Positions 10,355-41,304 of a stretch of 64,000 nucleotides of DNA are shown here, piece by piece. The stretch covers positions 10,178,861 to 10,242,860 of the forward strand of contig OX381716.1 in assembly GCA_947462335.1 (NCBI GenBank), given 5' to 3'. Source of the stretch: Harmothoe impar. Lineage: Eukaryota > Annelida > Polychaeta > Phyllodocida > Polynoidae. The notes below the pieces were generated by a model. That model was given only the letters and a program-made list of their open reading frames with translations, was not told where the DNA came from and made no database searches. The first letter of the stretch is position 1; each line of letters begins with the position of its first letter. Made by a program: the position numbers and the translations under genes.

Positions 10355-10360
10355 CCCGGA
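10355..10360. repeat. Target-site duplication, left (element 1)
   Basis: CCCGGA directly precedes the left TIR and is repeated exactly at 19901-19906 after the right TIR. A 6-bp duplication is the length made by Maverick/Polinton-type integrases. Confidence 0.9.
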
Positions 10361-10769
10361 AGTAGTATAGTATGTATCGGAACGGGACTATAGTTAAGTA
10401 CTGTTTATTACTCAATCGACATGCAGCCAATCAGAGGCCTCCATTTGGTCACGTGACCGGAAGTGACCTACTTAGGGGATTAGTGGTGACGTCACGTGAC
10501 CTAGTTAGCCAATCAGAGGCCTCCATTTGGTCACGTGACCGGAAGTGACCTACTTAGGGGATTAGCGGTGCATTCTGGGTAACCCTGAAGCCAATCAGAG
10601 GCCTCCATTGGGTGACCGGAAGTGACCTACTTAGGGGATGGTGCATTCTGGGTAACCTACTGACCTACTTAGGGGACCGGAAGTGACGTCACATGACCTA
10701 ATGGCCAACCGGAAGTGACCTCATTGAGGATCACGTGACCGGAAGTGACCTGATTGATCACGTGACCGG

Positions 10770-10796
10770 AAGAAGAAGAAGAAGAAGAAGAAGAAG

Positions 10797-10826
<30 letters not shown>
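10770..10826 (+). repeat. (GAA)n microsatellite in left TIR
   Basis: About 18 GAA units extend from an ETS-type CCGGAAG site. The right TIR has only about three units at the matching place, so the array expanded after, or independently of, TIR copying. Confidence 0.9.
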
Positions 10827-10827
<1 letters not shown>

Positions 10828-11058
10828 GACGTCACGCGACTTAATGAAGAGATGAGCGTCTTTAAGGGGTCACGGGCTTTAAAATGTGATATCTTTTTTT
10901 TTTTGGAGGAGGAGGCGAGTCTCTTATTTTTTTTTCGGTAAACTAATAAAAAACACTACGATATAAGTTTTTTTTTCATTTTTTTTTCATTTTTTATTGT
11001 TTTACGAGCGACTGGAAGTGACTTATTGAACTAGGTAGAAGCGTTCTTTAGAGTGTAT

Positions 11059-11215
11059 AAGGGGGGGAGGGGAGGGGAGGGGGGGAGGGGGGCCCCTTTA
11101 AGATGCATGGGGAGGGGGGCGCTTTTAGGATGCATGGGGCGGGTGGTGGGGGGGAGGGGGGGAGGGGGGAGGGGGGCACTCTAGGGGGGTGGGGGAGCAC
11201 TCTAAGGGGCGTTTG
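11059..11215 (+). repeat. G-rich tract, possible G-quadruplex
   Basis: Long runs of G (mostly 4-8) are separated by single A or short AT spacers, with two GATGCATGGGG phrases. Element 2 has a comparable tract in each TIR in the same place relative to its hairpin. Such runs can form G-quadruplexes; I see the sequence, not the structure. Confidence 0.7.
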
Positions 11216-11256
11216 TCTCTTTTAAGAAAAAAAGAAAAGAAAAAGATTTCAATCGA

Positions 11257-11296
11257 GAGACACGCTTCTTCCTCTCGAGAGGAAGAAGCGTGTCTC
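11257..11296. repeat. Perfect 40-bp palindrome next to the G tract
   Basis: The two 20-base arms starting GAGACACGCT are exact reverse complements with no loop (centre CTCGAG). Element 2 carries a different-sequence hairpin at the same relative position in both TIRs, which suggests that structure rather than sequence is kept. The matching region of element 1's right TIR lacks it. Confidence 0.9.
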
Positions 11297-11451
11297 TTCG
11301 TGTTTTTTTTGTTTATCACGTGCTGCGATGAGGCGATCAGCTGCGACTGGAGGAAGTGACACTTTAAGAGATCGCGCGTCTTAATTGTTATGATGTTTTT
11401 TTTTTTTTTACTTACTAATAAAGAAGACGTATGAAAATAAAACACAACAAT

Positions 11452-12201
11452 TCACATGTCCGTCGTTCTCGTTGTTTCTTGCTTGATAAAGTCAAGTAAT
11501 ATCGCGATGCCCAGGCCAAACTTTCCCATGTCCTCAGTCAACACTCGAAGGAGTTCAAAAGGCGTACCGCCGGCGCCGTCAGCTTCATCTTGCCACATTT
11601 TCAACACTCGGAAGGCCCACTCAGCGGGACTTCCTCCGTATTCGCATTCTTCAGCGATCTTATCTAACCTCTCAGGCGACAATTTTAAATGGTCCCCCAC
11701 CTCTTTCCACCTGCTACCCAGACGTCTGCCGAGGGTGCCCAAGTGCTTGTGCATCGCGCGCGAGTCGGGGTTTTCGAAATCCAACCCCTGTCTGTGGAGA
11801 AGGGCCATCCACTGAGCTAACAGTTCCATGCGTCTTATGCGGGTGAAGACGCGACCGAGCTCGCCCCATCTATGACGATGCGGGGTTTCACCCCACCACA
11901 CTCGGAACATCGCCGTACACAGCTCCTCCGGTGTCTTGACACTGCGCTCTACTAGAGCATCCATACGGGCGGCGCTGACTTTTAAGCTACTGCCCAACTC
12001 TCTCCAACAGCCGCTCAACTCTTTACCTAGTTGACGAAGCAAGGCGTCGCTATAGGCTAACCGCCGCTGTCCTACCTGTCGGGTCTCCCCATCATCGGTC
12101 TGCTGCCTCGCGCCGCGTCTCACGTCGTCAAGCCGCATTAACTTTTTTTCAGGCGCACCGGGCGGTGAAGGCGAGCTTGAAAGTGGAATAGCTTGAGCCA
12201 T
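11452..12201 (-). CDS. Tandem death-domain protein
   Basis: The 249-aa protein consists mostly of two death-domain-like modules, residues about 54-134 and 154-238, after a ~50-residue Ser/Pro and charged N-terminus. Each shows the family pattern: LGKEL..CWRELG then VSAARMDALVE in the first; LGRRLGSRWKEVG, LSPERLDKIAEE and AFRVLKMWQDE in the second. Death domains are homotypic adaptors in apoptosis and innate signalling. There is no caspase, kinase or membrane segment, so a free adaptor or decoy that alters host death signalling is the natural inference. It lies alone on the minus strand, divergent from the PC4-like gene, with a TATA box about 140 bp upstream, and its stop falls at the inner edge of the TIR. 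The start is the first ATG, with an open frame throughout. It could be captured from a host gene or from a virus. Confidence 0.85.
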   Translation of the reverse strand: MAQAIPLSSSPSPPGAPEKKLMRLDDVRRGARQQTDDGETRQVGQRRLAYSDALLRQLGKELSGCWRELGSSLKVSAARMDALVERSVKTPEELCTAMFRVWWGETPHRHRWGELGRVFTRIRRMELLAQWMALLHRQGLDFENPDSRAMHKHLGTLGRRLGSRWKEVGDHLKLSPERLDKIAEECEYGGSPAEWAFRVLKMWQDEADGAGGTPFELLRVLTEDMGKFGLGIAILLDFIKQETTRTTDM

Positions 12202-12209
12202 CTCGTCTC

Positions 12210-12227
12210 GTCTTGGCGGCGGCGGCA

Positions 12228-12258
<31 letters not shown>

Positions 12259-12290
12259 CGGTGGTGGTGGTGGCGGTGGTGGTGGTAGTA
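12210..12290. repeat. (GGC)n/(GGT)n tract in 5' leader of death-domain gene
   Basis: About 80 bp of GGC then GGT triplets on the plus strand lie between the TATA box and the start codon, so the minus-strand leader would be a GCC/ACC repeat. The tract makes spurious open frames in several phases. Confidence 0.85.
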
Positions 12291-12341
12291 GCCGTTACTG
12301 GGGTCAGAGGTGATATGTTTTTTTTCCAACAGAAATGAGAG

Positions 12342-12350
12342 CTTTTTATA
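12342..12350 (-). promoter_or_regulatory. TATA box for death-domain gene
   Basis: TATAAAAAG on the minus strand, about 140 bp upstream of the ATG at 12201. The transcription start would fall near 12315-12320. Confidence 0.6.
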
Positions 12351-13240
12351 CAGAGGGAGTTTAATCCCATTTCCAACAGCGCTCCAGCTGTCTAGCACCC
12401 TGTCCGCATGACGCTTTTTCAGCCGCTCCGCTCCTTAAGAGCTTAGATGACGAGGGGGTGTGGCATCGCTATCCGTGGAGACCAGCTGAAAACGGTGTTT
12501 TTTCCTCACTCATAGCCTTAATACCTCCTACCCCCTACCCGAGGACGTCTCCCTCCCTCTGACATTCATTGTAACAAACGTCAGAGGTCAGGTGAAAATC
12601 GGATTTTTTTTCATGCACAGCCTTAGGCAGCTGTCACCCCTCCCTATTGAACTAGCCGGCCGCCCGCCCGCCTGTCCGGCCCGGTCTACTCACCACGGCA
12701 GGAGGTGGCGATTTTTGTCTTACACTTAAGTCGCTCACCACATGCACACGTCTCTACTCACAGACAGGCACGTTCGTCTTAGGGGGGTCCTGCTTCACGC
12801 CACACGCCTCCTGTAGTTTTTTTTTGTATACACACTCTAAGCTCATCACCGTTACCGTTAATCCTTTATACAGCTAACGCGCGCTGAATGGCTGAACAGG
12901 GTGGTAAGCGGCTTAGCTCACCACAGTGGATCCCTCAAAAAGGGATCCAGCTGAAAACGTCATACCTTATGTCTTTGTGAATGGCCGCCGCCGGTCAGTC
13001 GACGGCAGGCAGCAACCGCTTAACCCTTTATACAGCTAATGCGCGTTGAATTGCTGAACAGGGTGGTAAGCGGCTTAGCTCATCATCACAGTCGATCTCT
13101 CAAAAGAGGGGGGGGGAAAGGGATCCAGCTGAAAACGTCATGCCTTATGTCTTTTTGTTTCTCTTTGTGAATGGCCGCCGGCCAGCCGGCGGCAGCTGAA
13201 CAGGGTCGGTAAGTAGCTTAGCTCTAGAAGCGAGAAGGCG
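12351..13240. promoter_or_regulatory. Bidirectional promoter region with duplicated block
   Basis: This separates the two divergent genes. A block of about 165-200 bp is present twice (about 12853-13018 and 13022-13220) and contains CTTTATACAGCTAA, GCTGAACAGGGTGGTAAGCGGCTTAG-type sequence and ATCCAGCTGAAAACGTCAT. The phrase CAGCTGAAAA or CAGGTGAAAA recurs at 12483, 12591, 12950 and 13126 and also occurs in element 2. The segment 12690-12850 matches element 2 at about 36135-36260 in reverse orientation. This is probably where element transcription is controlled. Confidence 0.6.
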
Positions 13241-13248
13241 TATATAAG
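13241..13248 (+). promoter_or_regulatory. TATA box for PC4-like gene
   Basis: TATATAAG lies about 68 bp upstream of the start codon, with CATTCACTCACTCATTC initiator-like sequence 20-30 bp downstream. Confidence 0.75.
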
Positions 13249-13308
13249 GGGCTTGGAAACCTCCATTCACTCACTCATTCTTTTTTGCTGCTCTCTACAG
13301 TCACCACC

Positions 13309-14895
13309 ATGAGCAAAAGACAACAGCTAGCGGCGTTCAAGAACAAGAAGACTACGCGGAACAGCGTTCGTTTAGCGTCAGTGCCTGCTCTTGCTACTGA
13401 ACATGAGACTACCGCCGCAGCCGGTTGGTCTTATCACCCTCCTGCTGTAGCGAGCGCTCGCGGCAGTAGTAGTAGTAGTAGTAGTAGCAGTAGCACTAGT
13501 AGTAGCAGTAGTAGTAGTAGTGGTAGTAGTACTAGTAGTACTACTGGTAGCAGTCGTCGTGCTAGCGACGTTGTTACACTCGCGACGGTACACGTTGCTG
13601 CTAAGCGCGCTGCCGCTGCTACCGCCGTCCCGCCTGCCGCTGCTGCTGCTGCTGCTGCTGCTGCTGCGCCTGCTACTGCTGCGCTTGCTACGGCTGCGCC
13701 TGCTGAGGCTGCTGCTGCGCCTGCTACTGTTGCGTCTGCTGCGGCTGCGCCTGCTGCGGCTGCTTCTGCTGCACTTGCTGCTACTGCTACTACTACTGAC
13801 GACAACGCTCCTGGCACAGCGCAGTACTGGCAACCGGGTTTTTACCTCCCCACTACTGTTGATGACTTTGATGACCTGCCGCACGTTGCACAGCCCCTCT
13901 CCTCCACCACTACATCGACGGACGCCCTCGACGCCGCTCGCGCTGAGAGTTACAGCTATTCGGACACTCAGCCCCTGAACCGAGAAGAAGAGGAGGAGGA
14001 GGAGCAGCAACAGGGTGAGACAGAGAACGACGCTGACGACGAGGCGTACGAAGAACCCGAAGGGCAAGGGGTGAGCGGTACGTTTTTCGGCTTCCCTCTT
14101 CGACCTTTCGACCTCACTTCCTCCACTGCTAGCGCCCCCCCGTCCGGTCCGTGGCGACTGCCCTCACCGCCACCTTACGAGGGCGGCGGCGGCGCTTCAT
14201 CTTCTACCGCTACACACAGCACGGACGGCGTGTGGCTGCGCTGTTCCAACAACGAGACCTCCGATACCACCAGCGCTGACGCTGCTCCTGCTATCGGTTC
14301 TGCTGCTGATTCAGCTCACGCTGATGGTGTTACTCATCCTGCGGGTGTGAAACGTTCTAAGGTGAGTTCCAGAACAACAAGGCCCACTAAGAAGAGAAAA
14401 ATACAAGAAAAAGAAGGAGATGGACGAGAAGAAGCAGAGAAAACACTCGGGTTAGAGTTCTGCTTAGACGGAGCTTTGACGCTGGAGATCTGGGAGGACG
14501 TGGCTAGACTGTCTAGGAGGCCGCGCTACACAAAAGACGGCCAGGTGAAAGAGGCGTCTCTGACCAGAAGCAAGCGAGTGCACTTCACGGCCGACGCGCT
14601 GCGCGAGCTCATAGCACGCATCGCCGATATCCGCGCAGTGGTGCGCATACGCGACACAGCGGCCGCGCAAGGAAAACCTAATCACACCCCCTGGTTCGCA
14701 GTGCTGGATGAGGCGGGCGAAGTGTACGCAGCTGTGAGCTACTACAGCGGTAAGAACCTCGTCCACGTGCGCAAGTACGAAGGTCCTGACAAAAAACCCA
14801 CACAGCAGGGGGTGACGCTGTCCGCCAGAGCGCTCAAAGAGTTGGATGACAAAACAGAGATCATTCTGAAATATCTCGGCATAGATTCGGAATGA
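13309..14895 (+). CDS. Low-complexity protein with tandem PC4-like ssDNA-binding C-terminus
   Basis: The start is the ATG at 13309 in a near-ideal Kozak setting (CACCACCATGA), giving 528 aa; the upstream in-frame TTG is not used. Layout: basic N-terminus (MSKRQQ), Ser run near residues 50-82, Ala-rich stretch near 102-165, acidic run (EEEEEEE) near 226-250, basic likely nuclear signal (TRPTKKRKIQEK) near 358-370, then a folded domain at about 380-528. That domain has two halves. The second (YAAVSYYSGKNLVHVRKYE, then QQGVTLSARALKEL) resembles the PC4/Sub1 pattern of strands followed by a GV.L....L helix, and the first (LTLEIWED then HFTADALRELIARI) looks like a second copy. PC4 proteins bind single-stranded DNA, which would fit strand-displacement replication by the neighbouring polymerase. 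The match is by eye only. Confidence 0.6.
   Translation: MSKRQQLAAFKNKKTTRNSVRLASVPALATEHETTAAAGWSYHPPAVASARGSSSSSSSSSSTSSSSSSSSGSSTSSTTGSSRRASDVVTLATVHVAAKRAAAATAVPPAAAAAAAAAAAPATAALATAAPAEAAAAPATVASAAAAPAAAASAALAATATTTDDNAPGTAQYWQPGFYLPTTVDDFDDLPHVAQPLSSTTTSTDALDAARAESYSYSDTQPLNREEEEEEEQQQGETENDADDEAYEEPEGQGVSGTFFGFPLRPFDLTSSTASAPPSGPWRLPSPPPYEGGGGASSSTATHSTDGVWLRCSNNETSDTTSADAAPAIGSAADSAHADGVTHPAGVKRSKVSSRTTRPTKKRKIQEKEGDGREEAEKTLGLEFCLDGALTLEIWEDVARLSRRPRYTKDGQVKEASLTRSKRVHFTADALRELIARIADIRAVVRIRDTAAAQGKPNHTPWFAVLDEAGEVYAAVSYYSGKNLVHVRKYEGPDKKPTQQGVTLSARALKELDDKTEIILKYLGIDSE
13460..13790 (+). repeat. In-frame AGT and GCT trinucleotide repeats in PC4-like gene
   Basis: AGT triplets encode the Ser run and GCT/GCG triplets the Ala run. 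The repeats also open long meaningless frames on both strands. Length polymorphism between copies would be expected. Confidence 0.8.
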
Positions 14896-15100
14896 GAGAC
14901 GCTCAACGCTCACGCGCGCACACACACACACACAGCGTTTGACGTACGCTGTATGAGACAGACAGACAGACAGACAGACAGACGGATACACAGACAGCAG
15001 ACAGAAAGATAGTTACATAGACGACAGATTGATAGATGGCTAGATAGATAGATAGATAGTTAGACGGCTAAGTAGTTGGTAACCGAGTGAAAAAAAAAAC
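14896..15100 (+). repeat. CA, CAGA and GATA microsatellites between two genes
   Basis: The 205 bp between the PC4-like stop and the polymerase start are almost entirely (CA)n, (CAGA)n and (GATA)n. I see no TATA box and no AATAAA here, so the polymerase may be read from the same transcript as the upstream gene, or by splicing or re-initiation. Confidence 0.7.
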
Positions 15101-18100
15101 ATGACACAGTACGTATGCGAAAAGTGTTTCAAAATGTTTAAAAGAGCGTACAACCACGAGAGACACGTAGAAAATTGTAGAGTAGTAGCTAAGTTTTGCC
15201 CTCTATGCGGCGAAGGGGATTGCCGAAAGAGCGCTTGTCGACGCGAATCTCTGGACGGGGTGACCGTCCCTCCGCGCATATGTGCTGTACCGAACGGGGA
15301 GGAAACGTTCACGGCGAATTGGCCTGCGATACAAACGGGCGTCAGGATGCACGGGACTCGCGTGAGTGTAACAAACTTCAGGCTACCAACCGGCGAGTTG
15401 AGTGACGCTGTAGATACTATGCGTCGCATTCACTTGACACAAAGATTCAGATACAAAGTGGGTTTCTCGGTAGGCTTACTGTTACAACACAGAGAAGACA
15501 AGAGCAAACTGCGCTACTTCCACGCCTCCCAGAACAACGCAACTCTCATACAACCGCTCCCTACTGTAACTAATTCAGAAACTTTGGAAGAGCTCCTCTC
15601 AAAGATGCAAAACACCGTCGCTTGCGAGGAGGTACGGAAACTTTGCGACGCTGACACCAAGTGGCACGTTCTTTTTCCTACCAATTTGAACATCTGCGTT
15701 TACATGGGACCGGGGGAATTCCCCATAGGCGGTAGGATCACTCAGGCCGGTCGAGTTGGAAAGAGAAGCGGCGTGTTAGATTTTCCCAACAAGGACAACC
15801 TCTGCATCTTCCGCTGCATTTCCTTTCACTTATACAACACCAGCAAGCGCGCTTCAGATTTGTTACGTCAGTTCTGTCCCGCTGCCACACCTGAATCCTT
15901 TCCGGGTCTGAACATCCGCGACTTACCCGCGTTAGAGAACTTGTTTGACGTACAAATAGCGGTTTACACCGCGTCGCGTCAAGTGCCGGGGCGGAAGTTG
16001 AGAAGACGCGTTACTCTGATCAGACCGCCTTCCAGAACTGTGGCCGCCCGAGGTAAAGTCAACCTACACCTGACGGCGAAAGGCGGTTTGCACGTCTCTC
16101 TCGTCACGGACTTCAACGCGTACGCGGGCATATACGAATGTTGCAAGTGTAAGGCGGCGTTCACCACCGAGTTCTTGCTGAAGAGACACAGGAACCAGCT
16201 TTCCTCTTGCCGACAAGTCAAGTTGCGCTACGTAGGTGGCATCTACCAAAATTCGAGAACGATTTTCGAAGCGCTAGCAGACTTCTCCATTTTTCCCCCC
16301 GACGGACATTCCGGAATCTACCCTTACAAGATCGCCTTCGATTTCGAGGCTTTCTTCAGACCGTGCAAAGAACCGTCGACAGAGCACGTGTCCCTGCTGT
16401 GGGATCACGTCCCTTTGTCGGCTAGCGTCGCATCCGACTTTCCGGGGTGGGAGGGGCCCGTCTGCTTCGTCAGAGCGTCCGACGCAGATTCCGACCCCTT
16501 GTTGGACCCAGTTTTAAATCACATAAACGAGAACGCCAAAGCGATCGGGGAAGCTGTGCTAGAACTTTACCGACCGACGTTAGCGAAGTTAGATGCGGCG
16601 ATAGGTGAAGCTCTCCTGCTGGAGGAGGCGACGTTCACCACCCCTTCTCCAGGCGGCTTCGCTGCGGCTCAGACCAGACACCCGTTAGTTCAACTGAAGA
16701 AGCGTCTTCTGAGATACATCCGTCAAGCTCCAGTGGTGGGCTTCAACTCGGGGCGTTACGACTTGAACCTGATCAAAATACGCCTTCACTCGTTCTTCGC
16801 CTCCGGAGACCGAAGAAACCAAGAATTCAGCGTCATAAAGAGAAGCAATCAATACTTGGCGGTTTACACACAGCACACGGTTTTCTTGGACGTAGTCAAC
16901 TATTTGGCACCCGGTTACAACTACGCGACCTATTTGCGAGCTTTCACCAGGAACGAAGAGAAAGGTCACTTTCCTTACGAATGGATGACGTCTACCAGGA
17001 AACTGGCAAACAGAACGCTGCCGCCGAGATCGGCTTTCGACAGCGAGCTGACGGGCGTCAAAATGTCCGAATCCGACTACGCCGCATGTCAGAAAGTTTG
17101 GTCCGACGAGAAGATGCAAACTATGGAAGACTACTTGATCCACTACAACAACAAAGACGTGAAACCTTTCATAGAAGCTCTGAAAAATCACGCTAAATTT
17201 TTCCAAGATCGCGGCATCGACATGTTGAAAGACGGAGTTTCTCTCGCCGGTTTGACTTTACGCTTCCTCTTCCAAAACCTAGAAGACGCGTTCACAACGT
17301 TTCCCCAGTTCGACGCCGTCCTCCACGCTCTGATCAAAGAGAATCTAGTCGGCGGTCCTTCCATCATCTTCCATAGATTTCACGAGAAGGGCACCACGCG
17401 GATAAGGGAGCACAAGTACGGCGAAGAAGCGAGACCGTGCCAACACATCCTAGGACTAGACGCTAACTCTCTGTACTTGCGCTGCATGAGCGAAGCGCAC
17501 TGCACGGGCTATTACGCGGTGAGACGGCCCGAGACCGAGTTCAAGCCCGAAATCAGGCAAAGAAACTCTCACAGCGCTTTGGAGTGGTTACGCTTCGTAG
17601 AGCACGACCGCGACGTGAAACTGCGCCACGCTCTGAACGGCGGCGAGATGGCGGTAGGCTGTCGGAGAATTCGCGTGGACGGATTTCACGCGGCCTCTAA
17701 TACGGTTTTCCAGTTTCACGGGTGTTGGTTCCACGCTCACGAGTGCATACCGTCGCACCGATATCAGTGCGCTTCACTGAGAGAGGAGAGACGCGACAGA
17801 ACGACCAGAGTAAGCGCTTACTTGAAAGCGTTAGGTTACAAGCTGGTCGTCGTGTGGGAGTGCGAATGGCGAGAGATGAAGCGTCGAGATGAGCGGGTCA
17901 AGGCCTCCCAACAACGCTGGAAGGTTGACGCTTTGAAAGTGTCTCGAAACGCGATGAGCGAGAGCGACATCCTTTCCGCTGTGAAAGAGGAGAAAATGTT
18001 CGGTTTAGTTCAAGTGGACATCACTACGCCGCCTCACCTACGAGAGTACTTCGAAGAAATGACCCCCGTTTTCAAGAACGCGACCGTTTCAAAATCGGAC

Positions 18101-19228
18101 ATAGGCCCTCACATGTCAGACTTTGCGCAGGAAGAAAAGCTGTTGAGCACGCCTCAGAGATGTCTGATAGGGAGTTACCACGGAAAAAATATTCTCTTGG
18201 GAACGCCGCTTCTCAAGTGGTATTTAGAGCACGGTTTGATAGTCACCAAAGTGCAGCTGGTGGTAGAATACCTACCTAAACGCGCCTTTGCCGGTTTCGC
18301 GGACGAAGTGACGGCGGCGCGAAGACGTGGCGACGTGAACGAGAACGAGAAAATTCTGTCAGACTGTTACAAGTTAATGGGAAACGCTACGTACGGTAAA
18401 ACAATCTGCAACAAAGAAAAACACACGGCGGTGAGATACACTGACAGTCGGAAGTTCGAACTATTGGCCAATTCGTGGCGCTTCAAAAAGGCGTCCGAGT
18501 TGACTTCCGATCTGTTTGAAGTCGAACTACAACCGAAAACGGTCAAGAACAACCTCCCTATTCAGATAGGGTTCATGGTATACCAGTACGCGAAGTTGAA
18601 AATGTTAGAGTTCACATACGACTTCTTGGATAGATTCGTCGATCGGCGCGATTATGCCCTTTGTCAAATGGACACCGACAGTCTTTACATGGCTCTCAGC
18701 GGTGCCACGTTGGATGACCTAGTGAAACCTCGCCTGAGAGAGACGTACTTCAGAGAGAAACGAAAGTGGCTTCCGACAGCGGTGTGCGACGAGCACTTAG
18801 AGCTTTTCGTGAAGACAAAAACGGAAAGAGTGCGAGAATGGTGTGCGCCGCCCGGCGGATGTTGTGAGAGACGGTACCTTCACGATCTGAGAACTTCGGG
18901 GCTCATGAAAGCGGAGTGGGAAGGTGACGGGATCCTAAGTCTCAACCCTAAGACTTACATTTGCTACGATCGAGTCAGCGACACCGGTGAAAGAAAATCC
19001 AAAAAATGGAGTGCAAAAGGCGTACAGAAGAAACAAAACCCCCAGGAACCAGACGCCTTCTTGGATGTTCTTCGCCAACGAAAAACTCTCATTGCTGTAA
19101 ATAGAAATTTCAAAGTGGTGCGAAACAAAATGGTCACCTACACCATAGAGAAAGACGGCGTGCGCTACTTGTATTATAAGCGTCGCGTGCATTCTGACGG
19201 TGTGACAACGAGTCCTTTAGAGATATGA
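15101..19228 (+). CDS. Protein-primed family-B DNA polymerase
   Basis: The protein is 1375 aa, intact, and would replicate the element by protein priming. Exonuclease motifs: FDFE (D414, E416), NSGRYD (N549, D554), YNNKD (Y682, D686). Polymerase motifs: A, LDANSLY (D787); B, KLMGNATYG (K1091-G1099); C, DTDS (D1191, D1193); KTY (K1284). The spacers between Exo III and A (~100 aa) and between A and B (~300 aa) leave room for the TPR1 and TPR2 insertions of this family, and the second holds GCWFHAHEC (874-882), a cysteine/histidine motif common in Polinton-type and linear-plasmid polymerases. The N-terminus has a C..C...H...C finger (C6, C9, H22, C26), a DNLCIFRC motif (232-239) and a second finger near 347-363. 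The start is the first ATG after an A-run. Polintons are the nearest relatives by motif style; a relation to adintoviruses is also possible. No sign of decay. Confidence 0.95.
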   Translation: MTQYVCEKCFKMFKRAYNHERHVENCRVVAKFCPLCGEGDCRKSACRRESLDGVTVPPRICAVPNGEETFTANWPAIQTGVRMHGTRVSVTNFRLPTGELSDAVDTMRRIHLTQRFRYKVGFSVGLLLQHREDKSKLRYFHASQNNATLIQPLPTVTNSETLEELLSKMQNTVACEEVRKLCDADTKWHVLFPTNLNICVYMGPGEFPIGGRITQAGRVGKRSGVLDFPNKDNLCIFRCISFHLYNTSKRASDLLRQFCPAATPESFPGLNIRDLPALENLFDVQIAVYTASRQVPGRKLRRRVTLIRPPSRTVAARGKVNLHLTAKGGLHVSLVTDFNAYAGIYECCKCKAAFTTEFLLKRHRNQLSSCRQVKLRYVGGIYQNSRTIFEALADFSIFPPDGHSGIYPYKIAFDFEAFFRPCKEPSTEHVSLLWDHVPLSASVASDFPGWEGPVCFVRASDADSDPLLDPVLNHINENAKAIGEAVLELYRPTLAKLDAAIGEALLLEEATFTTPSPGGFAAAQTRHPLVQLKKRLLRYIRQAPVVGFNSGRYDLNLIKIRLHSFFASGDRRNQEFSVIKRSNQYLAVYTQHTVFLDVVNYLAPGYNYATYLRAFTRNEEKGHFPYEWMTSTRKLANRTLPPRSAFDSELTGVKMSESDYAACQKVWSDEKMQTMEDYLIHYNNKDVKPFIEALKNHAKFFQDRGIDMLKDGVSLAGLTLRFLFQNLEDAFTTFPQFDAVLHALIKENLVGGPSIIFHRFHEKGTTRIREHKYGEEARPCQHILGLDANSLYLRCMSEAHCTGYYAVRRPETEFKPEIRQRNSHSALEWLRFVEHDRDVKLRHALNGGEMAVGCRRIRVDGFHAASNTVFQFHGCWFHAHECIPSHRYQCASLREERRDRTTRVSAYLKALGYKLVVVWECEWREMKRRDERVKASQQRWKVDALKVSRNAMSESDILSAVKEEKMFGLVQVDITTPPHLREYFEEMTPVFKNATVSKSDIGPHMSDFAQEEKLLSTPQRCLIGSYHGKNILLGTPLLKWYLEHGLIVTKVQLVVEYLPKRAFAGFADEVTAARRRGDVNENEKILSDCYKLMGNATYGKTICNKEKHTAVRYTDSRKFELLANSWRFKKASELTSDLFEVELQPKTVKNNLPIQIGFMVYQYAKLKMLEFTYDFLDRFVDRRDYALCQMDTDSLYMALSGATLDDLVKPRLRETYFREKRKWLPTAVCDEHLELFVKTKTERVREWCAPPGGCCERRYLHDLRTSGLMKAEWEGDGILSLNPKTYICYDRVSDTGERKSKKWSAKGVQKKQNPQEPDAFLDVLRQRKTLIAVNRNFKVVRNKMVTYTIEKDGVRYLYYKRRVHSDGVTTSPLEI

Positions 19229-19239
19229 AAAAAAAAAAT

Positions 19240-19305
19240 AATAAAAAATAAGCGTGTGCATCTTTTCAAAAATAGAGTGTTTATCAAGATTGAAAAAAAA
19301 ATAAA
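19240..19305 (+). terminator. Poly(A) signals after polymerase gene
   Basis: AATAAA occurs at 19240-19245 and again at 19300-19305 in very A-rich sequence, followed by a GT/T-rich stretch (TTGTTGTGTTTTTATT, about 19328) of the kind found downstream of cleavage sites. Confidence 0.6.
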
Positions 19306-19319
19306 TAAAAAAAATTAAA

Positions 19320-19900
19320 AGAAAATATTGTTGTGTTTTTATTATCATACGGCTTCTTTTACTAGTAAGTCGCGCAGTCTCTTAAAGCGTCACTCATGTG
19401 ACGACGTCGCTTCCAGTCACGGGATCCTAAACAAAAAAAAAACTTCTTCTTCTTCCGGTCACGTGATCAATCAGGTCGCTTCCGGTTGGCCATTAAGTCG
19501 TGTGACGTCACTTCCGGTCACGTGACTCATCAGGTCACTTCCGATCACGTGATCCTAAATTAGGTCATATGACGTCACTTCCGGTCCCCTAAGTAGGTCA
19601 GTAGGTTACCCAGAATGCACCATCCCCTAAGTAGGTCACTTCCGGTCACCCAATGGAGGCCTCTGATTGGCTGCAGGGTTACCCAGAATGCACCGCTAAT
19701 CCCCTAAGTAGGTCACTTCCGGTCACGTGACCAAATGGAGGCCTCTGATTGGCTAACTAGGTCACGTGACGTCACCACTAATCCCCTAAGTAGGTCACTT
19801 CCGGTCACGTGACCAAATGGAGGCCTCTGATTGGCTGCATGTCGATTGAGTAATAAACAGTACTTAACTATAGTCCCGTTCCGATACATACTATACTACT
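19320..19900 (-). repeat. Right TIR of element 1
   Basis: Inverted copy of the left end. The outer ~330 bp are nearly identical, including the CCAAT, CACGTG, CCGGAAGTG, TGACGTCA and TTACCCAGAATGCACC sites. It is shorter than the left TIR because it lacks the long GAA array, the G-rich tract and the 40-bp palindrome. Confidence 0.9.
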
Positions 19901-19906
19901 CCCGGA
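19901..19906. repeat. Target-site duplication, right (element 1)
   Basis: CCCGGA, identical to 10355-10360. Confidence 0.9.
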
Positions 19907-32987: not shown

Positions 32988-33317
32988 AGTAGTATAGTAT
33001 ATATCGGAACGGGACTATGCTTAAGTACTGTTTATAACTCAATCGATATGCAGCCAATGAGAGGCCTCCCTTTTGGCAGGAAATTCAAAAGCAGCCAATG
33101 AGAGGCCTCCCTTTTGGCGGGAAATTCAAATAGGTCACGTGACCGGAAGTGCCCTACTTGGCGGGAAATTCAAATAGGTCAAGTGACTGGAAGTGACTAC
33201 TATGTTGGCGCGAATTTCAAATAAGTCACTTGAGATTTTTATAGATAAATAAATTTTAAAAAGAAAAAGCAAGCTGAAAGCTTGCTAAAAATATTTTTAA
33301 AATGTGGCTCTTTTTTT

Positions 33318-33396
33318 AGGGGGGGAGGGGCACTCTGGGGGGCACTCTTTAAGATGCATAGGGGGGGAGGGGGGGAGGGGGGAGGGGGGGAGGGGT
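33318..33396 (+). repeat. G-rich tract in left TIR of element 2
   Basis: Runs of G separated by single A, with GATGCATAGGGG as in element 1. The mirror C-rich copy is at 41806-41880. Confidence 0.7.
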
Positions 33397-33407
33397 TTTT
33401 AAGAGTA

Positions 33408-33453
33408 AGACTCGCTCTCTGCCCTCTCTTTTAGAGGGCAGAGAGGCGAGTCT
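33408..33453. repeat. Hairpin next to G tract (left)
   Basis: The arm AGACTCGCTCTCTGCCCTCT pairs with its near-perfect complement across a short CTTTT loop. The mirror copy in the right TIR is at 41750-41795. Confidence 0.85.
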
Positions 33454-33842
33454 ACTGGTTCATCTACTTACAATGTCAACATTTTTTTTGTTTTGTTTTT
33501 GGGCAAACTGAGTTTGCACAAGGAAAAAAAATGCGACTTACTTAGGGCAATAACGTCTAGAAGAGAGAGAACTCTTGCTCTAGGTTGAGCGGGACTACAT
33601 GATGAGTATACTGAGTGTTAGGACTCTTGCTACACGACCAAAAGATTGAAATGTATCATGATGCGTTTATGATGATGTGCATCATGATGTGACTATCTTA
33701 CAACCCTATAAGAAATAAGCAAGGTCTCTCTCCTATACATAGGCGTACTTACACTGGCTATTTGTAAACTAATGAATACGACTTCCTCATTAAAATTGTC
33801 ATCTACAACTCTTTCAATCTTAAGGCTTTTTTTTTTTTTGAG

Positions 33843-33848
33843 TTTATT
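33843..33848 (-). terminator. Possible poly(A) signal for minus-strand gene
   Basis: AATAAA on the minus strand inside the TIR; the mirror copy (plus strand, 41358-41363) would serve rightward transcripts. The distance to the stop at 34834 would imply a ~1-kb 3' UTR. Confidence 0.35.
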
Positions 33849-33902
33849 CTTTTTTTCAAATTTGGTCCCACCTCAAAAGAGGAATAGGACTCTGTAACAA
33901 TG

Positions 33903-34401
33903 TAGCTCTCTTGATCAATTAACAGCCCACATTTTTCTTAGATGTCATCTGACAGCTTCTTGCTAGGCCAAGATATTGTTAAATAAACAACTTGGAAAGC
34001 TAATTACAGTTCTCTGGGCTTGAAATATGAGTATCTTGACTGTAACAGCAGCCTTTTACCATATAGTCCTTCAACAGTCCTCTGTTTTAGAGCCATTTGG
34101 TCAGCGACAGCCCCCCTTTTCTCATCTTACACAGAGGCAAATATCAGAGTCACCCAATGTCGCCTAAACCGCTCTCAGACAAGGGTCAGGCACTGCTGGA
34201 CTATAATAGATGGGTCAAGGGCCATTCTACTGAGGGTCAGGCTAGGCCGGACATTCAATAACAGGCTGAACTTTGGCAAACTTGCTTGAAAGTCTGGCCA
34301 TGCTGGATCCTTATGCCACAGTCTGTCAATGCTGGACTCTTGCTGGCCAGACTTTCAAGCAAATGTATAAAATGGTTTCAATTGTATCATGATGCGTTGC
34401 T
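33903..34401. other. Element 2 interior, with 19-bp-arm hairpin
   Basis: No gene. Perfect inverted arms TTGCTTGAAAGTCTGGCCA (34282-34300) and TGGCCAGACTTTCAAGCAA (34343-34361) lie in the probable 3' UTR of the minus-strand gene. Confidence 0.6.
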
Positions 34402-34765
34402 GACGATGTCACGGATGCTGTTGACAGATGCTGCTGCTTGTGCTGCTCGTGCAGCTGCTGCTGCTGCTGCTGCTGCTGACGATGTCACGGATGCTGCTGA
34501 CAGATGCTGCTGCTTTTGCTGCTCGTGCAACTGCTGCAGCAGCTGCTGCTTGTGCTGCTTGTGCAGCTGCTGCAGCTGCTGACGATGTCACGGATGCTGT
34601 TGACAGATGCTGCTGCTTGTGCTGCTCGTGCAGCTGCTGCTGCTGCTGACGATGTCACGGATGCTGTTGACAGATGCTGCTGCTTGTGCTGCTCGTGCAG
34701 CTGCTGCTGCTGCTGACGATGTCACGGATGCTGCTGATAGATGCTGCTGCTTGTGCTGCACGAGA
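34402..34765. repeat. Minisatellite of GACGATGTCACGGATGCTG plus TGC triplets
   Basis: Five copies start at 34402, 34478, 34581, 34648 and 34715, spaced by variable (TGC)n-rich filler. Long frames of Leu, Ala or Cys repeats in this stretch are by-products. Confidence 0.9.
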
Positions 34766-34833
34766 CTGAGTAGCCGCTATTACTAATGCTACTAATACTA
34801 GTATGAGAAAATACATTTAGTCAGTTGATTAAA

Positions 34834-35694
34834 TCAAGGAGGTTTTCTTACTTCAGTGGATCGTTTAGCCATCGGCCACGATGAAACCATTTTATACATG
34901 GGACAATTGGCAGAGTCGAAACATGTTGGTACGATGGGGTCGATCATGTTCATCATCAGTTCAGGCAAAGGAAGTGTGTCGACAGCACGCGAAAACTTCA
35001 TGTCTGGATGTTTCAACACAAGACCTTTTAACACACTCACACAGCTGCTTTGAATAGTGAATCCTTGACCAAACTTGAGCTTTTCCAACACAGCTTTGGC
35101 CTCTTTCTGTGCAATAAGGGATCTCTCTTTCAGATTCACCTCAGTGCTGTCTAGCATGTCCTCAAAGTCTTTAACATAATGTTCCAACGGGCTACAAATG
35201 ATGTACTCCAGATCATCGTCCGTATATGTCGTCTCCTCGCACCATATTGTGTCTTCTCCTGTTTCGAATTCCATCATTTTCTGAACAATCTCCTCGTGAG
35301 TGGGTTGCATATATCGAAGCTCCTTCAAAGACCTGATAACTTGTATGGCGAAGCCTGAACAAATACCTGAAGGAATTTCACCACAGTCAGCCCAAGTATA
35401 CGGAGCTAAGAAAAATAGCTCCAACAAAATTTTCTCCCTCTGTCCAAATGAAACTACTTCCGTTCCGATGAAGTTGAAGCATGCTTCTATCCATTGCTCC
35501 TTGGTGACGTCCTTCCAATGTTTCTTTACCTCACATGCATCATAGGGCACTGTTTCTCTTCCTGCTTCAAGTGGGAGTTGCTTTTTCTTTCTTGGACTCA
35601 TTTGGAGAGTTTTGATGCTCTGTAGCGTCGACACTTCGATAAGAAAAGAAGCTGAAAAGGTAGAAATAACCCTCATAATATGCTGAGCGAGCAT
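34834..35694 (-). CDS. Unrecognised 286-aa protein of element 2
   Basis: Open frame of 286 codons. The start may be the first ATG (35694) or the Met at about residue 32 (MSPRKKKQLP), which gives a basic N-terminus like that of the element 1 PC4-like protein. The middle is rich in charged and aromatic residues and looks mostly helical (HWKDVTKEQWIEACFNFIG; EKILLELFFLAPYTWADC), with several cysteines and an acidic stretch (TTYTDDDLEY). There is no signal peptide or clear membrane segment, and I recognise no domain. It sits on the minus strand beside the shared promoter, exactly where element 1 has the death-domain gene, so I infer an accessory cargo gene. It could be a diverged death-fold protein, but I see no supporting motif. 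Confidence 0.7.
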   Translation of the reverse strand: MLAQHIMRVISTFSASFLIEVSTLQSIKTLQMSPRKKKQLPLEAGRETVPYDACEVKKHWKDVTKEQWIEACFNFIGTEVVSFGQREKILLELFFLAPYTWADCGEIPSGICSGFAIQVIRSLKELRYMQPTHEEIVQKMMEFETGEDTIWCEETTYTDDDLEYIICSPLEHYVKDFEDMLDSTEVNLKERSLIAQKEAKAVLEKLKFGQGFTIQSSCVSVLKGLVLKHPDMKFSRAVDTLPLPELMMNMIDPIVPTCFDSANCPMYKMVSSWPMAKRSTEVRKPP

Positions 35695-36569
35695 AGAGTG
35701 GACGATGCTACGATGATGAAGGGCGGGTCGAGAAAGTGTGATGGGTGAGAGCGGCGTTTCACTCCTTATGTACCCTGTCCTAGATAATCCTCTTAAACGG
35801 CTGAAAAGACTCTCTCAGTACAGAGTCTCTACTCAATTAAGTGATCTGTTAAGTAAGTTTTCACATGCTACCTGACTACTGCAGGTGGGTTTAGACTTAA
35901 GCAGCTTAGTGCACACACGTGTCTGTTAGAAAGCTACCTGCACACCTGCCTTCCTTTTTCACTAGTATTTACCCCCTGCCGACTTATAAGGCGCCTATAC
36001 ACGTGTCAGCCTCCTTATATACGTCTTCTTGCTTCTAGAGCTAAGCTACTTACCGTCGTTTTCAGCTGCCGCAGGCTGACTGGCAGCTATTTAAAAGAGA
36101 ATACCCGTTACCTGTATAACGGATCAGGGGGTTATGATTTAGAGTGTGTATACAAAAAAAAGCTACAGGGGGCGTGTGTCTGTCTGTGAGGTAGAGACGA
36201 GTCCATGTGGTAAGCGACTTAAGTGTAAAACAAAAGCACCTCCTCTTGCCGCGGTGAGTGGAGCGGACGGCGGCTGGCTAGTTGAATAAGCGTCAGCTTA
36301 GAAGATAATCCGTCCACGGGCTGGCGCGTCACACCTGTCGTTAATCACCCCCTGTAGTCTTTGTATACACAGTTGACCTGGCTTTATCTCTTCACCAGCT
36401 ATAATCCCATATACATGTAGCGCACGTTACACTTGTTATCTCTCTTTTCATGCTGATGGATTAGGGGTGGAAGGGTCCAGGTGAAAAGCAATTTGATTCC
36501 TCTCTGGAAGAGGGTGGGGCTCTAGGTGAAAACAAGCTTAGAAGATCCAGATTAGCCGCTCTCTCAGCT
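35695..36569. promoter_or_regulatory. Bidirectional promoter region of element 2
   Basis: Matches element 1's central region in reverse orientation: GTGTGTATACAAAAAAAA, CTACAGG.GGCGTGTG, GCGACTTAAGTGTAA (36135-36260 versus 12690-12850) and GAGCTAAGCTACTTACC (about 36039). It also carries the CAG[C/G]TGAAAA phrase (36053 reversed, 36478, 36522). A weak TATA (TACATAAG, minus, about 35764-35771) precedes the 286-aa gene. Confidence 0.55.
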
Positions 36570-36578
36570 ATATAAAGA
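36570..36578 (+). promoter_or_regulatory. TATA box of an orphan rightward promoter
   Basis: TATATAAAG in the position of the PC4-like gene's TATA in element 1. No PC4-like or polymerase frame follows, so this looks like the remnant promoter of a lost gene, or it drives a non-coding or spliced RNA. Confidence 0.55.
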
Positions 36579-36871
36579 GCCTCAATTTTTATCTCTGCCC
36601 ACTTCGTCTTGTTGTACACTATCAGTCACAGGGCAGACGCTCGAAGTAGCAGATGTTTGCAGTATGGTTTATACAGAGGTAACCTGCTAATAGGATTTTG
36701 TCTAAAAAAAAAAAAAAATGGGGTGAGTAGATCGCTTTTTTTTCTAAAAATAAACCTCTTAGAACTCGGGTATGAATATGTAGCACTGTAAATAGTTAGT
36801 GTGAGTACACAGTAGAATCTACGGTACTATAGTCTTAACTGTCTAAAGACTGTGGAGCGCGTTAATGTGCG
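36579..36871. other. Leader-like sequence without a supported gene
   Basis: Short frames only. The phrase CAGAG/GTAACC near 36675 could be a splice donor, but this is speculative. Confidence 0.3.
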
Positions 36872-38836
36872 GTCTCCTTACTAATTTCACTTGACCAGGC
36901 TGGCAGGGTCAACTAGTCTAGGTAATTACAACCACAAGAGCGGCTACTCAACATCCAAGTAGACCTACTACTACGAGATTGTCTTTTGACCACTCTGCTG
37001 CCGCCTGGTGATTACATGCTCTAGTATAGTTCTCCGCTCTTTTCGTCAGATGACGCCACAATAGGATTTTTGTACATTTCTACGATACTCGCGAACATTT
37101 TAAACGCATAATGAACTATAATAAGCAACAAAGCACACTTCTAATATATTGAATATAAAAAACATGTCAATGTTGTGTATTTCTGATAGAATGAGGCAGT
37201 TTCTTTGAAATATCAACTAAACTATAGCGAGATGAAAATACTACACCATATCTAAAGCGATATAAAAGCTATATATAGTCAGAACCTCTCACGGATCGGT
37301 ATTCTGCAACGGATCACTCAACCATTCGTTCTCGGCCTCCTGTCCATTATGACTTTGAGCCTTGACGCTTTTGAGGTTTGATCCTATGCTGCCTAACATG
37401 AGGTGTAATTAATAACACCGATCGGTCCCTCTTTAGGGGCCACACAATAAACAAAGAATAAAAAGACTAAGGGGCCATTCACAAACGTCATCCCTATTTT
37501 TTTCTACGGAGTCGGTAGGTCTTAGGTTTAGCACTATCTGTCGTTGCAAATGGTGCTCGTGTAGAGTCGGCATGATGTACCAAAAGAACATTTATACACA
37601 ATGATACCATTGTACAAATGTGTATACCTAGTAGGCAGTGTCTAATCATCAAATCTAAGAGGGTGCTATAGTTTTATTATACTTTTATAGGCTATTTTAA
37701 AATCCAAGCTTAGCTTAGTTCATAGTCTCCTTACCAATTTTCAGTTGACCAGGCTGGCAGAGCCAACTAGTCTAGGTAATTATAACCAGAAGGGCGGCTA
37801 CTCAAGATCCAAGTAGACCTACTACTATGAGATTGCCTTTTTGACCCCTCTGCCGCCTAGTGATTACATGCTCTAGTCTAGCTCGCCATACCCTTTGAGC
37901 AGCTCTTAGTCCCTGTCAAAGATGTGAATAACGAACGCGCTAGTATAGTTCTCCGCTCTTTCGTCAGATGGCGCCACAATAGGATTTTTGTACATTTCCA
38001 CGATACTCGCGAACATTTTAACGCATAATGAGCTATATAAAGCAACAAAGTGTGCTTCTAATATATTAAATATAAAAAACAAGTCAATGTTGTGTATTTC
38101 TGATAGAATGAGTCAGTTTCTTTAAATATCAACTAAACTATAGCGAGATGAAAAATACTACACCATATCTAAGGCGATATAAAAGCTATACATAGTCAGA
38201 ACCTCTCACGGATCGGTATTCTGTCTGCAACGGATCACTCCCACTGGTCCTCGTATGCCACACACGGCTCTGCCCAACAGGGCTTTGAGCTTTGAGGCTT
38301 TGAGGATCCATGCTGCCCAACATGAGGTGTAATTAATTACGCTGATGTTGCGCAGCAGCGGCAGCATCTAACTCTCATCGGAGTTAGTCAGCCCCTCTTT
38401 AGGGGCCACACAATAAACAAAGAATATACTGAATCTGGGACCTGCTGGCGAGGCCCCCAACTGTGAGGACATTATTGTCCACATTGGTAATATCAATTAA
38501 ACTTTAGACAACACCCACCTTAAGTATCATTAACAGGCAATATCAATAAACTTAGCATCCTCCTGGTTACCACATTTAGCACCAATTTTACAACTCACAG
38601 TGGACACCCTTGAAAATAACACCAGCCCCACCCCGCTTTTTATTGCCCTGCTGATTTCTCCAATCCAAAACATTGGGTATTTAGTCCAGCTGTGAGCTCA
38701 TTAGGCAAGCCCTTTGTCGGCCTCGCCAGCAGGTCCCGGATTCAGTATAGAAAGACTAAGGGGGCGTTCACAAACGACACTCCTTTTTCTACGGGGGGTA
38801 GGTCTTTAGGTTTAGTACTATCTGTGTCATTAGGCC
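36872..38836 (+). repeat. Internal direct duplication (~0.7-kb units) in element 2
   Basis: 36872-37552 and 37725-38836 are diverged copies (for example, TTGACCAGGCTGGCAG, CTCACGGATCGGTATTCTG, GGGGCCACACAATAAACAAA). The second copy carries a nested 321-bp MITE and two small extra segments. There is no long open frame, so the unit is probably non-coding. Confidence 0.85.
38427..38747. mobile_element. Nested MITE inside element 2
   Basis: Ends TACTGAATC and GATTCAGTA are inverted repeats continuing as GGGACCTGCTGGCGAGGCC, with TA duplicated outside. The first copy of the internal duplication reads straight through here (AAAGAATAAAAAGAC, about 37454), giving an exact empty site. No coding capacity. 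Confidence 0.85.
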
Positions 38837-40334
38837 ATTTAAGTGACATGTGACATGGCCATTCTTAAAATCGACATGTGACATGGGGCTTAGTGACATG
38901 AATAAAAAATTCTCAATTACTGTAAAGTAGGCTACCAAACTCTTCCTTCAAATTCCGTCCTTGCGGGTGGTCAAATTTTTAAAAAATTCCTGGGGTCTAT
39001 GGTCCCAAGAGTCCAATTGTATCGATTACGGTGCCCCTACATTTTCCCCTTAGTGACACTAGTGACATGCCTTTTTCCTTAGTGTCATGTGACATGGCCA
39101 TTTCTTAAAAATCGACATGCGACATGGGGACCCCCCATCTACTGTAAACATACTTTATTTCGCGCTGTACATATTTTTCGCGATTTTCGCGGATCCCCCT
39201 TGTCTTGTTGCTATAACAACATAGATGAGGTTAAACAAAAAATAAGTGGTGTCCAAAAAAAGCACCCCCCCTGACGTCCACGTTCAGACCCCCGCAAAGG
39301 GTTACATAACAATAAGTACAAAGACCCTCTTTTCATGACAATACACGTTCATCTCAAACCCCTAGCGCCCCTATAAATAGGGTTAAGTACCTGTCCCAAC
39401 TCCCCTACCACTGCTGCTGCTGCTGCTGCTGGAGGGGTACCGAGAACTACGCCCTTTTAAAAAACTAAGTAAAAATATCCTTCTTCATGTCCAGTTACAT
39501 ACAATGTCGATCAATTTGACACCGTAGCACCATGTCTCCATATCTGTATGCTGCATAAATGCACAATACACGGTTTTGCACGCACTTAAACTAAGGCTAA
39601 CATGGGTGACCTATATAGATATGATACTCTCGTTTTCGAGGCTAGTAGAAATTAGGCGTCTAATATGGACGTTCCGGGTTCGAACCCTCACTAAGTTTTA
39701 GTCAAAACGTCTAGCCACGTCGCCTAAGGCGACGAAAGCGCGTCAGGGTATTTACAGGGTTCGAACCCGTGAGCTGCTCCTTGGGGCCACAAAAAACGCT
39801 TCAGGCTTGGAATCCCATAGGAAAGAAATTTTGGGTTTTTGGACTTTAGGCCTTAATTTGGGGGTGATCCCGGGCTGATAGAAAAATAATTCTTGGACGA
39901 GCGGATAGCTCTGGATCTCTTTTTATCTAAAACAGCGAAAAATTGATTATGGTTCCGCCGCAATTCCTCCGAGGAGGGGTAATCAGCCCCCCCTCTTGCC
40001 AATCAAGGCAGTGAATTTTGACAGCGTGTAATCACTCGCAGCTATCGCGGACGGACCTCTTGGCTATGTCGGCATCTTAGTATGGTTCGTGTGACCTACT
40101 TAGAGGCTCACACGGTGGGGGTGTGTCCGGCGTAGCCTGATTGGCTACTGGTGGGAGGTGCCGTGCTGTGTTAGGAACTTTGCATATTTGGGACGGGTGT
40201 TAAGCAAGAGCACGAGCAGAAGCGAGGACACCATTTGCACAATCCGGCCGTCACGTTGGTAGCCTTACTACCCGTCGCGCATTCAACTGGAGGCTTAAGT
40301 GTGACCAATGACGATTCTTTGTCGACGCGACTAC
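38837..40334. other. Element 2 interior, no supported gene
   Basis: This holds repeated GTGACATGTGACATGG-type phrases (38840-38900, 39050-39125), a MITE-like ACTTTATTTCGCG piece (39150-39195), (TGC)n at 39413-39431, and two pol III B-box-like motifs GGTTCGAACCC (about 39680 and 39760) without convincing A boxes. Confidence 0.4.
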
Positions 40335-40396
40335 TAACATCAGCAGCATCAGCAGCATCAGCAGCATCAGCAGCAGCGGCAGCAGCATCGGCAGCA
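40335..40396 (+). repeat. CAGCAT/CAG repeat
   Basis: About 60 bp of AGCAGCATC units ending at a TATAAGG sequence (40399-40405) just before the p53-like cluster. Confidence 0.8.
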
Positions 40397-40398
40397 GC

Positions 40399-40496
40399 TA
40401 TAAGGTGAAAACATGTTCAGACACGGTCGGCGTGTGAGGCCTGTCCAGTCACGCCCGAGCAGGTTCGAACAAGTTTGAACGTGTCTGAACATGTTC
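40399..40496 (+). promoter_or_regulatory. TATA-like site and p53-family decamer cluster
   Basis: Perfect RRRCWWGYYY decamers stand at 40409 (AAACATGTTC), 40467 (GAACAAGTTT) and 40487 (GAACATGTTC). The decamer at 40477 has one mismatch, so 40467-40496 is three half-sites in a row with no spacer, the strongest arrangement for p53/p63/p73 binding. A TATAAGG lies just upstream. AACATGTTCAGACACG at the left end is also the inverted copy of the right end of the cluster. Binding is inferred. Confidence 0.5.
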
Positions 40497-40514
40497 CGGA
40501 GTGCAAGATGCGTG

Positions 40515-40685
40515 CACACACACACATACACACACACAGACACACACAGACACACACACACACAGACACACACACAGACACACACAGACACACACACACA
40601 CAGACACACACACCCACACCCACACACCCACACACCCACACCACCACACACCCACACACCCACACCCAAACACACACCCACACAT
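40515..40685. repeat. (CA)n-type microsatellite
   Basis: About 170 bp of CACAGACA and CACACCCA units. All six-frame Thr/His or Val/Cys frames here are artefacts. Confidence 0.95.
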
Positions 40686-41304
40686 TTTCTGTATGAGAAT
40701 TCAGACCTGAAGCTGCTCAGTGTACGTGACTAGGTTTTGTCATATGCCCTACGGACGCTACTCAAGGGGGAATAAGAGAGCTGTCTCACCATGGCATGGG
40801 CTGGCTGTAGTTCATGTTTCGGTACCTACAACCAAACAGCCAGTACCCACCCCAGGGCTTCATGTCGCACGCGGGAAAAGTATAAAGATTCGAACGGTGG
40901 CGCCAACTGTCGGAATAGCGGGTACACTACGTCAGTAGTTCTTTTGTTCTCCGCTGAGTGACTGGGCGAAATGTAGTCGGTAGCGCTATTTTCTGTGCGC
41001 TGTTCTGTTCATTTTCTACACTTAACGCTTAAATAGAACATGTGTTTGTACAAGCTAGCCGTTTTTATCAGTGCAAAAATTAAATAAGCATCGGATAGAA
41101 CAATAAAAAATGAGAAAGTAATCCAGCGCTTAGTATAATGCGTCAGTTTTATCATGAGACACCGAAAGTCTGGTTCTTTCGGGTGCATAAGACAGTCGGC
41201 CGAGAGCTCCAAACCAACCAAAACGTACCAGAGTGCGATCTATCTCAGAACGTACCCGACAGGGCAGGGGCCTTCTACACCCCGGCTCTGATGAGCAAGC
41301 GACA
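40686..41304. other. Element 2 interior, no supported gene
   Basis: Short frames only, no domain or repeat that I recognise. Confidence 0.4.

Follow-up and report, generated by a model that had tools for sequence, protein, structure and literature searches.

Polintons, or Mavericks, are described as single elements in which replication, integration and capsid genes are carried together. Adintoviruses are single-genome viruses, and the Bidnaviridae have a bipartite genome and a PolB taken from Polintons; to our knowledge, no bidnavirus carries an rve integrase. In the excerpts of the literature on which we draw, bidnaviruses are ssDNA viruses with a parvovirus-type capsid and helicase (PMC4061559), cytoplasmic linear plasmids are linear elements that bear pPolB and have lost the morphogenetic module (PMC11071308), and Polintons/Mavericks are recognized by the end motif (AGT)2//(ACT)2 together with a 6-bp target-site duplication, or TSD (PMC8097293).

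The element that we describe here, E1, is like group I Polintons/Mavericks in its (AGT)2//(ACT)2 ends, its 6-bp TSD, and a PolB with a Vsr-like insertion and a possibly OTU-like N-terminal part. At 9.5 kb it is unlike the intact vertebrate Mavericks, for which the same excerpt gives 12.7-24.6 kb (PMC8097293), and unlike Polintons/Mavericks it is without integrase and capsid genes; an integrase and a capsid-like gene are found instead on other elements that have its ends. The system to which E1 would belong resembles the Bidnaviridae in having a Polinton-type PolB and, if the split proposed below is right, a two-part genome. In contrast to cytoplasmic linear plasmids, E1 is chromosomal, is flanked by TSDs, and has the same ends as elements that bear an integrase.

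E1 and a second element, E2, lie in the window, by which we mean the whole stretch of 64,000 nucleotides of Harmothoe impar DNA that was analyzed. Their features, with the evidence for each, are as follows.

10355..10360, + strand: left target-site duplication of E1, CCCGGA (flank sequence)
10361..19900, no strand: E1, complete PolB unit, 9,540 bp (ends, TSD, both ends present in 19 of the 20 copies sampled)
10361..10781, + strand: left terminal inverted repeat (TIR) of E1, starting AGTAGT (421 nt aligned)
11452..12201, - strand: tandem death-domain protein, 249 aa (Pfam; 3 homologs)
12681..13253, + strand: intergenic region with two blocks common to E1 and E2, inverted in E2 (sequence comparison)
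13309..14895, + strand: protein with a PC4-like C-terminal stretch (Pfam, sub-threshold; one homolog)
15101..19228, + strand: PolB of the protein-primed type, 1375 aa, open frame (ORF, Pfam, alignment, models)
17705..17920, + strand: Vsr-like endonuclease stretch within PolB, residues 869-940 (profile match)
19443..19900, - strand: right TIR of E1, finishing ACTACT (458 nt aligned)
19901..19906, + strand: right target-site duplication of E1, CCCGGA (flank sequence)
32988..42319, no strand: E2, with ends of the E1 type, 9,332 bp, TSD CTTCCT on both sides (ends, TSD, TIRs)
34834..35694, - strand: sole long ORF of E2, 286 aa, without a Pfam match (ORF, Pfam)

The boundaries of E1 are well defined. 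Its TIRs align with 412 matches, 6 mismatches and 5 gap events (421/458 nt), and the junctions read CCCGGA / AGTAGT...ACTACT / CCCGGA, with an exact 6-bp duplication. A 31-nt pattern made from the end matched four times in the window and not once in 100 shuffles. Within these boundaries the coding set comprises an intact Polinton-type PolB, the tandem death-domain protein, and possibly a PC4-like protein. In the three leftover gaps, stop-to-stop frames reach at most 108, 79 and 68 aa; the only gap frame run against Pfam (ORF 12138-12398) matched no family. No rve integrase was found within E1, as the gap frames are too short and a tblastn search with the integrase of a partner element, described below, was negative; that integrase and the partner's capsid-like proteins had no tblastn match at E<=1 anywhere in the window. 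Because there is no room for them (gap frames of at most 108 aa), capsid proteins, an ATPase and a protease are likewise absent from E1. No SF3 helicase or capsid of the parvovirus type appeared among the Pfam matches of the E1 ORFs, and the intergenic region at 12681..13253 is perhaps a promoter. Rfam and tRNA scans across the window gave no matches. Elsewhere in the window, a retroelement ORF at 47400-48320 encodes a reverse transcriptase (RVT_1, 60 bits). Thus an earlier note on this DNA, written from the sequence, was right about the true ends of the element and about the lack of integrase and capsid genes between them.

The same note held the polymerase to be intact, and this is borne out: the 1375-aa frame is open and has all the residues of the Exo I-III, Pol A-C and KxY motifs. 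The protein matches PF03175 at 30.1 bits against a cut-off of 25.8, and from N- to C-terminus is laid out as C2H2-like fingers, an OTU-like domain, a 3'-5' exonuclease, the Vsr-like insertion and the polymerase. When E1 was aligned with 39 of the 40 homologs (P0001 being excluded as identical), the Exo residues and the Pol A Asp were kept in each of the 40 rows, and the Pol C Asps in 36, with 3 gaps and 1 change in the others. A model of the catalytic C-terminal polymerase has a mean pLDDT of 88.8, and its best match in a BFVD fold search was the PolB of a Drosophila-associated adintovirus (E 6.8e-34), a fold that E1 thus has in common with adintoviruses; other matches were densovirus, bidensovirus, bidnavirus and bidnavirus-like virus records. 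For the N-terminal model (pLDDT 78.6), the best PDB match was a weak one to OTUD1 (E 2.4e-3, prob 1.00), Y-family polymerases matched at E 0.087 or more, and no PDB match reached E<=0.001. An OTU-type Cys is present in 34 of 36 rows and the His in 35 of 36. This weak, model-based resemblance would be in line with the TP-vOTU-Exo-Pol layout given for Polinton PolBs in the excerpt of PMC11071308.

Trees of PolB were built with 36 rows (5 of the 40 alignment rows dropped and L003, a long branch, added) and with 29 rows (13 of 40 dropped and two PolBs of host Polintons added, one of them partial), both confined to these sequences. E1 grouped with P0002 and P0003 in both. Names of scallops occur among the relatives of the E1 PolB. 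One relative, P0027, has 251 member sequences, with a longest contig of 1.6 Mb, and is perhaps another large expansion. Searches of viral_contigs with the E1 PolB, A1, the L003 Polinton PolB and A5 gave no confirmed relatives, and genome_contigs yielded four loci that serve for distant comparison only; one of them, L001, is from the MAG of a tubeworm symbiont, and the other three, L002-L004, share one MAG. At L003:1-8482, in an alphaproteobacterial MAG, a Polinton-like PolB with an apparent HNH-like insertion, and an apparent integrase-like ORF, were picked out by eye (no Pfam match).

The insertion in the E1 PolB raises the question of whether E1 needs no partner and inserts itself in some other way, for example with its own Vsr-like nuclease. 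A profile of 21 sequences matched Vsr structures at E 1.1e-7, and D860, H878, E920 and C921 are conserved in 40/40 rows, the first three of which would favor such a route. Against this, the excerpt of PMC10328495 gives the insertion as a mark of ordinary group I Mavericks, which also have an integrase, and we accordingly rejected it as a new feature; moreover, the ends and TSD have the form typical of integrase-mediated insertion, and an integrase element with the same ends exists. We regard a self-sufficient E1 as extremely improbable. E1 has the PolB and the ends of group I Polintons.

The Death family matches the 249-aa protein in two stretches (32.5 bits, cut-off 22.6), and the domain is present in all three homologs. 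At L066:163-4396, beside a full Polinton, are a DUF5662 protein, a tandem death-domain protein 27% identical to that of E1, and a SOCS-box match just under the cut-off; we rejected this death-domain relative as a gene of the full Polinton, as it lies about 4.7 kb outside that element. The third E1 gene had been read as encoding a single-strand-binding protein. A C-terminal stretch is possibly PC4-like, although at 21.9 bits it falls under the Pfam cut-off of 25, as does its one homolog, and no PC4 match was found for ORF 13309-14895 among solved structures; for these two reasons ssDNA binding is retained as a tentative label for the predicted product.

To place E1 in its genome we searched the 1.51-Gb host assembly (G000), in which the numbers of candidates are lower bounds. 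A 1,001-bp PolB query gave 964 first-look candidates, of which the best 40 were scored, all shown at 100% identity. Twenty of these 40 were sampled, a sample that leans young because it was drawn from the best-scoring copies. Both ends and an exact 6-bp TSD were present in 16 of the 20, so that the (AGT)2//(ACT)2 ends and TSD of E1 and E2 recur in them, in the kind of search for further copies that the note had proposed; three more had both ends with differing flanks, and one showed no left end within the retrieved sequence. The copies with both ends, 19 in all, measure 9,482-9,723 bp, and the small gene set is therefore the rule rather than the loss of a single copy. Over about 4 kb each, the window E1 and eight other loci differ by 0-9 mismatches and 4-56 gap columns per pair. 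The PolB frame is open across 833 residues in all eight genomic loci, and the death-domain gene was found in each of five PolB copies checked.

The ends are more numerous than the PolB candidates. The 31-nt end occurs 11,590 times in the genome (5,791 forward, 5,799 reverse), against none for a reversed-pattern control. The first 100 places, in the first 5 Mb of C1, give 41 pairs of neighboring ends that face inward, with 18 ends left single. Among the pairs, 28 span 8,728-9,881 bp and 11 span 10,344-10,537 bp, placing 39 of 41 within 8.7-10.54 kb. The two longer ones (C1:3921638-3934882, 13,245 bp; C1:4267525-4283450, 15,926 bp) are possibly nested insertions. On the assumption that no end is unpaired and that the mean length of the 41 pairs is general, about 5,800 elements would occupy about 58 Mb (3.8%) of the genome.

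One element of the longer class, C1:68939-79384 (10,446 bp), has an end identical to that of E1 over 61/61 nt and an exact TSD, CATAAC. We read 5,001 bp of it (C1:69500-74500), and this part encodes an rve integrase (50.0 bits, cut-off 32.6; chromo at 19.5, sub-cut-off) that is 34% (E 2e-65) and 32% identical to the integrases of two full Polintons of the host. Three further frames, ORF439, ORF384 and ORF147, match no Pfam family. ORF439 is related to ORFs of the two full Polintons (22-24%; E 6e-33 and 2e-31), and its kinship, size and place lead us to predict a capsid-like protein; ORF384 resembles the full Polintons weakly (E 0.001-0.002). The 5,001 bp have no similarity to E1 or E2 and contain no E1-type PolB, PC4-like or death-domain gene, and a packaging ATPase and a protease were seen neither in E1 nor in this half. 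A second such element, C1:492661-503194 (10,534 bp), has a matching end (40/40), an exact TSD (GTTATT) and an integrase 99.6% identical over 250 aa. The integrase query gave 884 first-look candidates, 40 of which were scored with identity shown as 100%. When the 40 PolB places and 40 integrase places were compared by eye, none lay within 11 kb of each other and the nearest were 57 kb apart.

For the parts of the partner that were read, then, complementary gene sets are carried by elements with common ends, and both types are numerous and near-identical. The suggestion that E1 takes its integrase from elsewhere agrees well with these elements. That E1 is a minimal replicon of a new type, standing alone, is not supported, given that it has a group I PolB and ends and that integrase and capsid-like genes occur on elements whose ends match its own. 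With 5,001 bp of the 10,446-bp partner read, we think it probable that E1 serves as the replication unit in a Polinton that is split, whether bipartite or multipartite. Another arrangement would be that of satellite and helper. Here the ~10.4-kb partner would be a complete Polinton in compact form, encoding a diverged PolB of its own, and E1, the satellite, would keep a polymerase and borrow the helper's integrase. The other 4.9 kb of the partner is about the size of a PolB gene and would have room for one; a 4.1-kb PolB, however, would leave that half no space for an ATPase and protease, and the near-equal candidate numbers (964 and 884) suggest partners. We consider this arrangement unlikely.

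Because ordinary Polintons are also present in the genome, E1 might be a deletion derivative of these ~20-kb elements that is mobilized by their integrase. With PF04665, five matches exceeded the cut-off (E 6.6e-4 to 9.8e-4). The ordinary Polintons (C5, C13, C20, C21, C8) form two families whose copies are about 99.5-99.8% identical in long matches. Family A (C5, C13; 19,985 and 20,306 bp) has AGTAGT//ACTACT ends and exact TSDs (ATCTGT, GAGGAT), and family B has AGCAGG ends with TSDs, read by eye, of GGACAG (C20) and GGCGTG (C8); for the copy on C21, no left end matched. Each family carries an rve integrase. Full Polintons with the starting motif of the E1 TIRs, which the note had asked for, are thus found in family A, but the TIRs of the full Polintons have no match to those of E1 or E2. 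Their PolBs fall outside the E1 group in the tree, and by BLAST match that of E1 only around the Vsr-like part (30-38%), apart from an extra weak stretch with family B (E 0.034). Because these PolBs are so far from that of E1, it is not a recent deletion product of the full Polintons, and derivation by deletion seems to us very improbable.

E2 bears on how many kinds of unit a split Polinton might have. Its TIRs differ at 14 of 589 positions compared, and what it shares with E1 is the outer 86 nt and the two intergenic blocks. No match was found between E2 and the E1 proteins, 44 related proteins, or the integrase and capsid-like proteins of the partner, and of thirteen E2 frames run against Pfam, the 286-aa ORF among them, none scored above a cut-off. 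About 6 kb of E2 is without long ORFs; the 286-aa ORF is downstream of a block common to E1. From its sequence, E2 appears to be a further element type in which neither the replication set nor the integrase/capsid-like set is detected. The 1,848 PolB and integrase candidates fall far below the ~5,800 end pairs, so that many elements carry other content or the search missed some.

A split Polinton of this sort could operate as follows. Replication genes are on the ~9.5-kb unit and integrase and capsid-like genes on the ~10.4-kb unit, and the units would serve each other in trans via their common ends. The PolB of the former would start protein-primed copying at the common end of either unit, and the integrase of the latter would insert the two units into the chromosome, duplicating 6 bp of the target. 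The capsid-like protein might package the units, and the death-domain protein might dampen a host cell-death or immune signal. Going further, we entertain, at slightly less than even confidence, a segmented Polinton virus with at least two ~10-kb segments (replicase; integrase and capsid) that have common ends and are replicated, integrated and packaged together, of which E2 is perhaps a third kind of segment. The narrow range of lengths, E2 included, would then stem from a limit on packaging at about half the length of a ~20-kb Polinton genome.

In this annelid the gene sets appear to be on separate units with the same ends, which would have spread to an estimated ~5,800 elements. If the split is true, it would parallel the two-part bidnaviruses, and genome splitting, the origin of satellites, and cooperation among integrated virus-like elements would become testable in one genome.
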